Of a DNA stretch of 64,000 nucleotides, positions 35,378 to 60,669 are shown piece by piece. The notes beneath the pieces were generated by a model. It ran no database searches. It saw nothing but the letters and a program-made list of their open reading frames with translations, and was not told where the DNA came from. Source of the stretch: Peptoniphilus sp. GNH (GTDB lineage: Bacteria; Bacillota; Clostridia; Tissierellales; Peptoniphilaceae); NCBI GenBank assembly GCA_021307325.1, contig CP089931.1, forward strand, positions 1,636,979 to 1,700,978, written 5' to 3'. Within the stretch, counting starts at the first letter, position 1, and the number at the start of each line of letters is the position of its first letter. The position numbers and the translations under genes are program-made.

Positions 35378-35383
35378 TATAAT
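35378..35383 (+). promoter_or_regulatory. -10 of the murB operon
   Basis: TATAAT lies 16 bases before the murB start. The ATG at 35382 overlaps this box and cannot be the start if the promoter is real. The -35 is weak. Confidence 0.5.
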
Positions 35384-35399
35384 GAATATGAGGTGGAGT

Positions 35400-36302
35400 A
35401 TGGATTTACATAAAATTTTCAAAGATTTTAATGATATAGATATTTTTTATAATAGAGATTTAAAAGCTTATACTAATTTCAAGTTAGGAGGCCCGGCTGA
35501 TGCCATGGCTTTTCCAAAAAGTGAAAAGGATATTGTGAGTCTCTTGGAAATTTGTTTTAAGCATAATGTTTCCTATGTGATTTTAGGCAAGGCGTCTAAT
35601 CTCATTGTAAGAGATGGCGGAGTTGAAGGCTTGGTAATTTTTTTAAGAGAAAATTTTTCAAAAATTGAGCATGAAAAAAACATAATAAATGCACAAGCTG
35701 GCATTTCTATGCAAGCTCTTGCAAATTATGCAAGAGACCTTTCTCTTTCGGGAGCTGAATTTATCCATGGGATACCAGGAAGCCTTGGAGGTGGCGTTTC
35801 TATGAATGCCGGAGCCTATGGAGGCGAGATTAAAGACATTATACAATCTGTAAGAGTGCTTGATAGAGATTTAAATATTAGAGAGTTTTCTAATGAGGAA
35901 ATGAATTTTAGATACAGAAATTCAAGAGTATTTGACGAGGGACTTTTGGTTTTGTCTGCCAAGCTAAAATTGCAAGAAAAAGACAAGGAAGGTATAAATG
36001 CTCTTATGAAAGATCTCATGCAAAGGAGAATCTCTAAACAACCTCTTGAATATCCATCTGCTGGTTCTACCTTTAAAAGGCCAGAAGGCTATTTTGCAGG
36101 TAAACTTATAGATGATGCGGGCCTTAGGGGATTTAGACTTGGAGATGCACAAATTTCAGAAAAGCACTGCGGATTTGTAATAAATAGAGGAGAAGCCACT
36201 GCCTCTGAGGTCATAGATCTCATAGAGACTGTGCAAAAGATAATATATGACAAATATGGTATTGAAATTGAGAGAGAAGTAAAAATTATAGGGAGGCAAT
36301 AA
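35400..36302 (+). CDS. murB: UDP-N-acetylenolpyruvoylglucosamine reductase MurB
   Basis: 300 residues. It has TNFKLGGPADAMAFPKS, the FAD-binding GKASNLIVRDGGVEG and GIPGSLGGGVSMNAGAYGGEI, plus PLEYPSAGSTFKRP with the catalytic Ser and GDAQISEKHCGFVIN. It reduces the enolpyruvyl group to UDP-MurNAc in wall synthesis. The start at 35400 follows GAGGTGGAG. The stop overlaps rapZ by one base, the conserved Firmicute order. Confidence 0.97.
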   Translation: MDLHKIFKDFNDIDIFYNRDLKAYTNFKLGGPADAMAFPKSEKDIVSLLEICFKHNVSYVILGKASNLIVRDGGVEGLVIFLRENFSKIEHEKNIINAQAGISMQALANYARDLSLSGAEFIHGIPGSLGGGVSMNAGAYGGEIKDIIQSVRVLDRDLNIREFSNEEMNFRYRNSRVFDEGLLVLSAKLKLQEKDKEGINALMKDLMQRRISKQPLEYPSAGSTFKRPEGYFAGKLIDDAGLRGFRLGDAQISEKHCGFVINRGEATASEVIDLIETVQKIIYDKYGIEIEREVKIIGRQ

Positions 36303-37138
36303 TGGAGATTTTAATTATTACCGGACTTTCGGGAGCCGGCAAGTCTCAAGCTTTAAATGTTTGTGAAGATATGGGTTATTTCGCCATGGACAATTTGCCT
36401 CCGGCTCTTTTATCTAAATTTGTGGAGCTTTCAATGGGCAGGGATGACTTGGATAGGGCTGCTGTTGTTATTGATTTAAGAGCAAGACCATTTTTTAAAG
36501 ATCTCTCCAAGGCCCTTGATGGATTAAAGACCATGGGTGTTGATTTTAGGATAATTTTTCTGGAAGCAGATGAGGATTGCATAATCAGGCGTTATAAGGA
36601 AAAGAGAAGACCCCATCCTCTATCTTCGGACATTGTAGAAGGTTATAGAAAAGAAAAACAATTGACAGAAGATTTGAGGAATAGGGCCGATTTTGTAATA
36701 AATACTAGTGATTACAAGAATAAGGACATCAAAAACAAGATGTTGGATATTCTTGGAAGTGGCGAGAAGGACATATTGATTTCTATTAATTCTTTTGGAT
36801 TCAAAAATGGAATCCTTTTAGATGCTGATTTGGTTTTTGATGTTAGATTTATAGAAAATCCATATTATATAAAAGAACTCAGAGAAGAAAATGGACTTAG
36901 CGACAAGGTAAGAGATTTTGTCTTAAAAAATGATGTGACCAAGACTTTTATTTCAAAAACTATGAATCTTTTAAACTTTCTAATACCCAACTACAAGGCT
37001 GAAGGCAAGTCAATCCTTGTCATTGGAATAGGTTGTACTGGGGGTTATCATAGGTCTGTTGCCATTGCATGCAAGCTTGCTTACGACTTGGAAAAGGCAG
37101 GTTATAAGATTTCTTTAAGGCACAGGGATTTGAAATGA
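36302..37138 (+). CDS. rapZ: RNase adapter / nucleotide-binding protein RapZ (YvcJ)
   Basis: 278 residues. The P-loop is GLSGAGKS (8-15), followed by DNLPPALLSKF, KRRPHPLS and C-terminal SFGFKNGILLDADLVFDVRF and GIGCTGGYHRSVAIA. In E. coli it guides RNase E to GlmZ; in Bacillus YvcJ binds nucleotides and affects competence. It is coupled on both sides. Confidence 0.95.
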   Translation: MEILIITGLSGAGKSQALNVCEDMGYFAMDNLPPALLSKFVELSMGRDDLDRAAVVIDLRARPFFKDLSKALDGLKTMGVDFRIIFLEADEDCIIRRYKEKRRPHPLSSDIVEGYRKEKQLTEDLRNRADFVINTSDYKNKDIKNKMLDILGSGEKDILISINSFGFKNGILLDADLVFDVRFIENPYYIKELREENGLSDKVRDFVLKNDVTKTFISKTMNLLNFLIPNYKAEGKSILVIGIGCTGGYHRSVAIACKLAYDLEKAGYKISLRHRDLK

Positions 37139-38100
37139 GAAATAAAAAATTTGTGGTGATAGGAGGAGGAACCGGAGTCTCGAATATTTTAAGAGGTCTA
37201 AAGCTTTTCACATCTGAGATTACGGCTATTGTAACTATGGCAGATGATGGTGGGGGCTCTGGACTTTTGAGAAGGGAAATGGGAATTTTGCCACCAGGAG
37301 ATCTTAGAAATGCTCTTGTAGCTCTTGCAAATTCTTCCTCTTCTATGGAAAAGCTGCTTCAATTTAGATTTAAAAGAGGCCCTCTTGAAGGGCAAAATTT
37401 CGGCAACCTCTTGATCGCCTCTTTAACTGAAATCTATCAGGATTTCGAAACTGCCATCTATGAAGCTGCCAAAGTTTTAAATATATCGGGCAGAGTTTTT
37501 CCTGTAACCTTGGATAACGTTCACCTAGAGGCTGAATTTGAAAATTCTAACAGATGTATAGGCGAGTCCAAGATTGGAGAGGTCGCTTTTAGAGAGAAAA
37601 CGAGAATTAAAAGACTTTCAAACTTCCCAAGAAGGGCCCAAATTTTTTCTAGAGCAGAAGAGGCAATTTTGGATGCTGATGCAATAATTCTAGGACCAGG
37701 TTCTCTTTATACTTCTGTAATTTCAAATCTCATAGTAAAGGGCGTACCAGAGGCAATAAGAAAATCTTCAGCCAGAGTTTATTATATAGGAAATATTATG
37801 ACTGAAAAGGGAGAGACCGACTCTTATAGCATAAGTGACCATATAAGGGCTATAAAGGATCATGGAGGAGATTTTATAGATAGGGTGCTTATAAATACAA
37901 AGGTGCCCGAGGCCGAGCTTTTAAAACGATATGAAGAAAAGAATCAGACCTATATTGATATTTCTAAGGAAGATATGGATTATTTAAAGAGTGAGAATAT
38001 GAAAGCCATAATGGGTAATTTTATCAATGACGACCAAGACTGCATTAGACATTCTTCTATAAGAATTTGTGGCAAGATTATGGAAGATCTCGACAGCTAG
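37135..38100 (+). CDS. yvcK: Gluconeogenesis factor YvcK/GlmR
   Basis: 321 residues. It has VVIGGGTGVSNILRGLK and MADDGGGSGLLRREMGILPPGDLRNALVALA typical of the CofD-like YvcK family, and GPGSLYTSVISNLIVKGVPEAI. In Firmicutes it binds UDP-sugars and stimulates GlmS, linking carbon flow to wall precursors. It overlaps rapZ by 4 bp. Confidence 0.95.
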   Translation: MRNKKFVVIGGGTGVSNILRGLKLFTSEITAIVTMADDGGGSGLLRREMGILPPGDLRNALVALANSSSSMEKLLQFRFKRGPLEGQNFGNLLIASLTEIYQDFETAIYEAAKVLNISGRVFPVTLDNVHLEAEFENSNRCIGESKIGEVAFREKTRIKRLSNFPRRAQIFSRAEEAILDADAIILGPGSLYTSVISNLIVKGVPEAIRKSSARVYYIGNIMTEKGETDSYSISDHIRAIKDHGGDFIDRVLINTKVPEAELLKRYEEKNQTYIDISKEDMDYLKSENMKAIMGNFINDDQDCIRHSSIRICGKIMEDLDS

Positions 38101-38157: not shown

Positions 38158-39102
38158 ATGAGCTTTTCAAATTTTGTTAAAAATGAAGCTGCAAAAGTAA
38201 AAAATGAGAAAACTTCAACTGTGGAAGCAGAGCTTGCGGGATTTATCAGGATGAATTCCAAGATTTCCTTGACTTCTAAGGGCCCCAGCATTAGGTTTGT
38301 AACTGAAAATGCCTCTGTTGCTAGGAGGATGTTCACTTTCATAAAGAGATTTTATGGAGAAAATGTGACAGCCTTTGTGTCAAGAAATACCAGTTTGAAA
38401 AAGAACAACAACTACAACATAGTCGTGGATGATTATGATGTGGTCAAGGTTTTGTTATATGATACGGATTTCATAAGAAACGATAACTATTTCATGCCCA
38501 ATTTTGATTTGCCCAGGGAGCTTTTAAACTCGATAGATTGTAAAAAAGCTTATATAAGAGGCTCTTTTTTGGGGGCTGGTTCTATAAGTAATCCGGAAAA
38601 ATCCTATCATATGGAATTTGTCATGAAAAATGAACTGCACGCTCATGGTTTGGAGCTGCTTTTGAAAGATTTTGGACTCAGACCAGGAATAACTGAAAGA
38701 AATGATTCATACGTTCTCTATTTAAAAGAAGCTGAACAGATTTCCGATCTCCTGGCTCTTATTGATGCTACTAAATCCGTTTTGGATTTTGAAAATATAC
38801 GGGTTCTCAAGGACATGAGAAATCATGTAAACCGACTTGTGAATTGTGAGACGGCAAATCTCAATAAGACAGTGAAGGCGTCTGTAAGACAGAGAGAAGA
38901 TATCTTGCTTATTGATAAAATCTTAGGCTTGAAGAAGCTCCCACAAGAGCTTTTTGAAGTTTGTGAATTGAGACTAGAAAACATGGAGGCTTCCCTTAAA
39001 GATTTGGGATCTATGTTGGATCCGCCTTTAGGTAGAAGTGGAGTAAATCACAGATTTAAAAAAATAGAGGAAATTGCTAATAACTTAAGGAGTGGAGAAT
39101 AA
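38158..39102 (+). CDS. whiA: WhiA-type DNA-binding protein
   Basis: 314 residues. The N-terminal LAGLIDADG-like homing-endonuclease fold shows AYIRGSFLGAGSISNPEKSYHMEFV, and the C-terminal helix-turn-helix shows SLKDLGSMLDPPLGRSGVNHRFKKI. In Firmicutes it affects division, chromosome segregation and metabolism. It overlaps the HPr-like gene by one base. Confidence 0.95.
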   Translation: MSFSNFVKNEAAKVKNEKTSTVEAELAGFIRMNSKISLTSKGPSIRFVTENASVARRMFTFIKRFYGENVTAFVSRNTSLKKNNNYNIVVDDYDVVKVLLYDTDFIRNDNYFMPNFDLPRELLNSIDCKKAYIRGSFLGAGSISNPEKSYHMEFVMKNELHAHGLELLLKDFGLRPGITERNDSYVLYLKEAEQISDLLALIDATKSVLDFENIRVLKDMRNHVNRLVNCETANLNKTVKASVRQREDILLIDKILGLKKLPQELFEVCELRLENMEASLKDLGSMLDPPLGRSGVNHRFKKIEEIANNLRSGE

Positions 39103-39347
39103 TGAAAGAAAAATTACTTGAGGTATCAAAGGAGGACGGTCTTCAATCTAGAGCAGCCGCCTTGTTTGTAAAGACGGCAAACCAATTTGTTTCTGAGATA
39201 ACTCTTGAAGTGGGCGATGAGAGAGTAAATGGCAAAAGTATAATAGGTATTATGAGTCTTGGCATTTTCGCTGGTGAAAAGGTGAAGATTTATTGCCAGG
39301 GCCCAGATGAGGAAGAAGCTCTCGCCTCTTTGGAAAAGATTATATAA
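39102..39347 (+). CDS. crh: Crh-like HPr-family protein (Gln15, Ser46)
   Basis: 81 residues of HPr fold. Position 15, the phosphorylated histidine in HPr, is glutamine (DGLQSRAAALFV), so it cannot take part in PTS transfer. The regulatory serine is kept at position 46 (VNGKSIIGIM). This matches Bacillus Crh, also encoded after yvcJ-yvcK-whiA, where HprK-phosphorylated Crh is a CcpA corepressor. Ala18 replaces the usual Pro. The alternative is a divergent HPr, but Gln15 and location both favour Crh. Confidence 0.85.
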   Translation: MKEKLLEVSKEDGLQSRAAALFVKTANQFVSEITLEVGDERVNGKSIIGIMSLGIFAGEKVKIYCQGPDEEEALASLEKII

Positions 39348-60612: not shown

Positions 60613-60619
60613 ATTTGCA

Positions 60620-60633
60620 TGAAAATGTTTTCA
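60620..60633 (+). promoter_or_regulatory. cre-like site upstream of the ridA operon
   Basis: TGAAAATGTTTTCA is symmetric and fits the CcpA consensus except T for the central C. It lies seven bases before a TTGACA -35, a position where CcpA usually activates. Confidence 0.45.
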
Positions 60634-60640
60634 AAAAACA

Positions 60641-60669
60641 TTGACAATTAATCATCAGCATGATAATAT
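60641..60669 (+). promoter_or_regulatory. Promoter of the ridA-diaminopropionate operon
   Basis: A perfect TTGACA (60641-60646) and TAATAT (60664-60669) are separated by 17 bases. GATAAT at 60662 is an alternative -10. Confidence 0.65.

Follow-up and report, generated by a model that had tools for sequence, protein, structure and literature searches.

What does an HPr-family protein do when its residue 15 is glutamine and no Enzyme I can be found in the genome that encodes it? This question is raised by a small gene in a stretch of 64,000 nucleotides (hereafter the window) from Peptoniphilus sp. GNH (contig CP089931.1), whose 1.86-Mb genome is assembled as a single contig and is 99.6% complete. 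A first-pass annotation, made from the letters of the window, proposed that the gene encodes a Crh-like protein outside Bacillus, that is, a regulatory HPr paralog unable to pass phosphate in the phosphotransferase system (PTS), and associated it with catabolite control. The gene and the run that precedes it are as follows, all on the forward strand.

35382-36302 (+): murB, first gene of the adjoining run
36302-37138 (+): rapZ/yvcJ
37135-38100 (+): yvcK/glmR
38158-39102 (+): whiA, its stop overlapping the HPr-like gene by 1 base
39102-39347 (+): gene of an HPr-family protein of 81 aa, with ATG start, Gln15, Ala18 and Ser46
39144-39146 (+): codon 15, CAA (Gln), His in relatives
39237-39239 (+): codon 46, AGT (Ser), predicted target of HprK

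The protein matches the Pfam PTS-HPr family with 91 bits (cut-off 23). Residues 15-18 are Gln (CAA), Ser, Arg and Ala (GCA), and Ser46 is present together with the surrounding HprK recognition stretch, NGKSIIGIMSLG. The annotated Gln15 and Ser46 can thus be read directly from the codons, and with Gln at residue 15 the statement that phosphate cannot be passed on there stands. The proposed gene order upstream was also borne out: RapZ, YvcK and WhiA all score above their NCBIfam cut-offs, with MurB preceding them. The window genome belongs with the Peptoniphilaceae, because the closest named relatives of the HPr-like protein are those of Peptoniphilus species (best 64% identity).

The term paralog, on the other hand, has to be given up, since the HPr family search returns this protein as the only HPr-fold match in the genome; the true HPr expected elsewhere was not found by that search, and the protein is the only HPr-fold substrate found for the HprK of this organism. 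Enzyme I is likewise without a match in the window genome when searched with PF05524 (one HMM in one assembly), a search that does match 7 of 14 control genomes and 76 of 130 genomes of the family. Neither feature expected of a PTS HPr, His15 or a genomic Enzyme I, is therefore seen here. The annotation had named a lack of HprK or CcpA as evidence against its reading, and both HprK and a CcpA-like regulator are present. HprK scores 351.8 bits with TIGR00679 (cut-off 240) and has both of its domains, PF02603 and PF07475. B. subtilis carries hprK, and the HprK family search with PF07475 gave no match in the B. subtilis control genome, so that absences in this search have to be read with caution. 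The regulator is the one LacI-family protein of the genome; it is matched best in the PDB by L. lactis and B. subtilis CcpA, and TIGR01481, the strict CcpA equivalog model, is the best of 17 families at 218 bits, below its cut-off of 442. Judged from the sequences, these proteins quite probably constitute a module for catabolite control without a PTS: HprK would phosphorylate Ser46, and the phosphoprotein would act as the corepressor of CcpA.

A survey of 130 genomes of the family places this set in a wider context. HPr was detected in 126 of them, Enzyme I in 76, HprK in 117 and a LacI-family regulator in 117. The 54 genomes with undetected Enzyme I, several of which are incomplete assemblies, include 51 with HPr (exactly one in 50), 49 with HprK, 48 with the LacI regulator and 47 with all three, while at least two HPr were found in 67 of the 76 Enzyme-I-positive genomes. 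The HPr sequences read comprise 88 rows from 82 genomes: 45 rows from 45 of the 54 Enzyme-I-less genomes (of the remaining nine, three have no HPr match and six lie outside the rows read) and 43 rows from 37 of the 76 others. Lys45-Ser46 occurs in all 88 rows. Among the 45 Enzyme-I-less rows, 44 have His at residue 15 and only that of the window has Gln, Arg17 is present in all 45, and whiA is found in the same short stretch as the HPr gene in 43, a linkage that is kept in nearly all relatives. By position, the HPr-like gene corresponds to crh; it is the whiA-linked HPr gene of Tissierellales/Peptoniphilaceae. Ala18, which the annotation pointed out as replacing the usual Pro, is present; it was rejected as a special mark of the protein, since 33 of the 44 other Enzyme-I-less rows carry it. 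Ala18 occurs in 34 of 45 Enzyme-I-less rows vs none of the 43 others, clustered by descent, and this split is a pattern and not a test because the two groups also separate by descent.

HprK and LacI-family regulators are absent together in g5, g6, g11 and g12. This joint absence concerns two genera and two single genomes (G045-G053, G061, G062), several of which retain Enzyme I and a Ser46 HPr. In Enzyme-I-positive relatives such as G019 and G033, an ortholog of the CcpA-like LacI protein is encoded just upstream of ptsH-ptsI. In the literature searched, where subscription papers were mostly outside the scope, no description of an Enzyme-I-less clade with HPr, HprK and CcpA was found, nor any paper on Peptoniphilus together with HPr/PTS or with catabolite repression.

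The association with catabolite control had rested in part on a cre-like site at 60620.

60619-60634 (no strand assigned): cre-like palindrome ATGAAAATGTTTTCAA, with a single mismatch to the B. subtilis consensus

The palindrome is real and nearly perfect. It lies just upstream of a promoter-like pair, TTGACA / TAATAT (span 60619-60669), and the run downstream contains RidA-like, ammonia-lyase-like and peptidase-like genes, the names and the promoter being assigned by reading without a search. In Bacillus, cre sites upstream of a promoter can activate. When the window was scanned with the cre consensus allowing one mismatch, 11 matches were obtained vs 5.5 expected, and 2 of 100 shuffles scored as high. 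Genome-wide no cre regulon was seen, the consensus giving 1 match vs 5 in the reversed control; TGAAARYRYTTTCA has one palindromic site in the whole genome, at 60619-60634, a count equal to that of its control. Because the genome counts do not exceed the reversed controls, no cre regulon is shown, and the site was rejected as evidence of one on the window, genome and TGAAARYRYTTTCA counts; it adds little to the case for catabolite control.

The lack of a visible regulon would fit a different target in place of CcpA, for example methylglyoxal synthase, on which Bacillus Crh acts, or the neighbours YvcK and WhiA, with phosphorylation of Ser46 as the switch. The preservation of the whiA gene order in nearly all relatives points in the same direction, and one study describes MgsA as regulated by Crh and the B. 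subtilis operon as consisting of whiA, glmR and crh (PMC10714963). However, HprK and the LacI/CcpA-type regulators of the family are mostly kept and lost jointly, and the residues that contact phosphorylated Ser46 (Ser46-P) are retained in the CcpA-like protein, which makes a different target unlikely.

The reading as a module acting through CcpA invites comparison with B. subtilis, where Crh also has Gln15 and Ser46, is encoded directly after whiA in the yvcJ-yvcK-whiA run, and is accompanied by HprK and a CcpA-type regulator. Among the PDB matches of the window protein, Crh chains (66-67 bits) exceed Bacillus HPr chains (52-59 bits), although a Thermoanaerobacter-type His15 HPr (71 bits) stands above the Crh chains. 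In contrast to the window genome, where neither was found, Bacillus possesses a PTS as well as a distinct HPr with His15; the window protein also lacks the Pro18 of B. subtilis Crh. With NF010354, which we take to be the Crh model, the protein scores 87.7 bits against an equivalog cut-off of 123, in a model that separates poorly outside Bacilli. The margins between the Crh and HPr NCBIfam models, tried on 10 proteins as a family test, do not discriminate and were dropped. Published work places Crh in Bacillus species (PMC8359418), and a match beyond Bacillus, found by BLAST, is given for Thermoanaerobacterium (PMC3526391).

Closer counterparts are the whiA-linked HPr proteins of Peptoniphilus, Aedoeadaptatus, Anaerosphaera and Tissierellaceae, which share with the window protein the gene place, Ser46 and often Ala18, at no more than 64% identity. 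They retain His15, whereas the window protein has Gln15 and Ser16, and its C-terminus is shorter (81 aa vs mostly 86-88 aa in the whiA-linked HPr of the family). Soehngenia longivitae and two related genomes (L100, L102, L107) carry Gln15 in the same gene place; unlike the window genome, they have Enzyme I and keep Pro18 and the Asp of CcpA discussed below. At the Enzyme I loci of Soehngenia-like genomes (L297, L298, L299), no HPr gene, His15 or other, is found in the surrounding 17-18 kb. The occurrence of ptsH without ptsI also extends to groups unrelated to the window lineage.

The origin of Gln15 was traced in two trees. In a tree built from 52 WhiA rows, two changes are required to account for Gln15, both forced by strongly supported branches: one in the window lineage, on a long branch inside a His15 Peptoniphilaceae group (support 85), and the other in the three Soehngenia-like genomes, which come from 77 loci, 76 of them read. 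In an HPr tree (102 rows, 88 columns, poorly resolved), the rows nearest to the window are whiA-linked HPr of the family, and Bacillus Crh lies across a branch whose support is 96. Given the two changes in the former tree and the separate position of Crh in the latter, descent of Gln15 from a Bacillus-type Crh was rejected, and convergence with Bacillus Crh is the best reading of this residue. A recent exchange of His15 for Gln among ordinary HPr proteins had been named as evidence against a Crh-like identity. The exchange did take place among His15 relatives, as the WhiA tree shows, but these relatives are not ordinary PTS HPr because their own genomes are without detectable Enzyme I. Of the designation Crh-like outside Bacillus, what remains is Gln15 with Ser46, the gene place, HprK and the CcpA-like regulator; paralogy and a shared ancestry of Gln15 with Bacillus Crh do not. 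The protein is not a Bacillus-type Crh, either by descent or as a paralog, but it probably functions in the same way.

In the CcpA-like protein, the motif that contacts Ser46-P retains Arg302 and Lys306, and the Lys of this motif is a contact residue like the Arg. Asp296 of CcpA is said, in work by Schumacher from 2004, to face His15 and Arg17 of HPr. The corresponding column, which we take to be that of the acidic residue facing HPr His15/Arg17, is occupied in the window genome by Asn295 and in the other orthologs by Asp (48 of 49) or Glu (1 of 49), in a comparison of 50 rows after removal of 9 LacI paralogs. The acidic residue is thus replaced in the window lineage; Asp is retained at this column by the Soehngenia-like genomes that carry Gln15. 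Elsewhere in the CcpA-like protein (L150:2442-3446), Gly259 occupies a position that is Asp in 49 of 49 orthologs. For B. subtilis, one report states that Arg304 of CcpA contacts Ser46-P, that HprK is stimulated by fructose bisphosphate, and that the HPr site on CcpA also accepts Crh-Ser46-P (PMC4591507). Another report ascribes to unphosphorylated His15 a direct contribution to CcpA binding (PMC3526391).

Asn295 alongside Gln15 suggests, on comparison of the residues, a matched change of the interface and does not prove one. In the CcpA-like protein of the window genome, 4 of 65 near-invariant columns (97% threshold) are changed, more than in nearly all relatives; some drift of CcpA is therefore possible, and the chance of a departure at the facing column without any link is about 6%. 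At near-invariant columns with a 95% threshold, departures number 3 of 29 in HPr, 8 of 80 in MurB, 4 of 71 in YvcK, 3 of 51 in WhiA and 1 of 66 in RapZ; L093, L111 and L117 were omitted from the comparison of neighbour genes because of the lack of whiA linkage. HprK, compared among 51 proteins, shows no departure in the 37 invariant columns and one in the 56 near-invariant ones (95% threshold); with RapZ (0 of 53 invariant columns changed), it belongs to the best-conserved proteins of the comparison. It is tentatively proposed, as a possibility still short of an even chance, that Enzyme-I-less Peptoniphilaceae keep HPr residue 15 as a contact of CcpA and not for phosphate transfer, and that the window lineage changed both sides together (His15 to Gln in HPr, Asp to Asn in CcpA), which would yield a re-tuned PTS-free catabolite switch under HprK alone.

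The same departures in CcpA (4/65) and HPr (3/29), and the long branch of the window lineage in WhiA, would also be expected of a module in decay, where His15 is free to drift without Enzyme I and the change in CcpA is part of the same drift. The conservation of HprK, however, together with the intact Ser46 and surroundings and reading frames that are all open, renders decay quite improbable. An ordinary PTS HPr whose Enzyme I was missed or whose Gln15 is a sequencing error is hardly credible: one genome of the genus was sampled and HMM searches can miss genes, as PF07475 did in the B. subtilis control, but PF05524 succeeded in the control and family genomes counted above, and with Ser for Ala at residue 16 two neighbouring codons differ.

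Under the PTS-free module preferred here, the lineage apparently lost Enzyme I together with the Enzyme-I-linked HPr and retained the regulatory half of the system. Ser46 would be phosphorylated by HprK when the cell is rich in energy or in sugar phosphates, and the Ser46-P protein would serve as corepressor on the single CcpA-like regulator. Because residue 15 is Gln, it should carry no phosphate; the brake that PTS activity exerts through His15 on Ser46-P and CcpA in other Firmicutes would be absent, and the signal would be set by HprK alone. In most Enzyme-I-less relatives His15 and Arg17 may have been retained for contact with CcpA, the window lineage having separately exchanged His15 for Gln.

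These observations are of interest mainly because His15 and HprK persist across the family where Enzyme I is missing, and because of the possible paired change with CcpA. With 54 of the 130 sampled genomes lacking detectable Enzyme I, and most of these keeping HPr, HprK and a CcpA-type regulator, the family amounts to a natural experiment in which the two roles of HPr are uncoupled. Two questions become testable: whether binding to CcpA as such is what conserves His15, and how bacteria that lack PTS sugar uptake carry out catabolite control.
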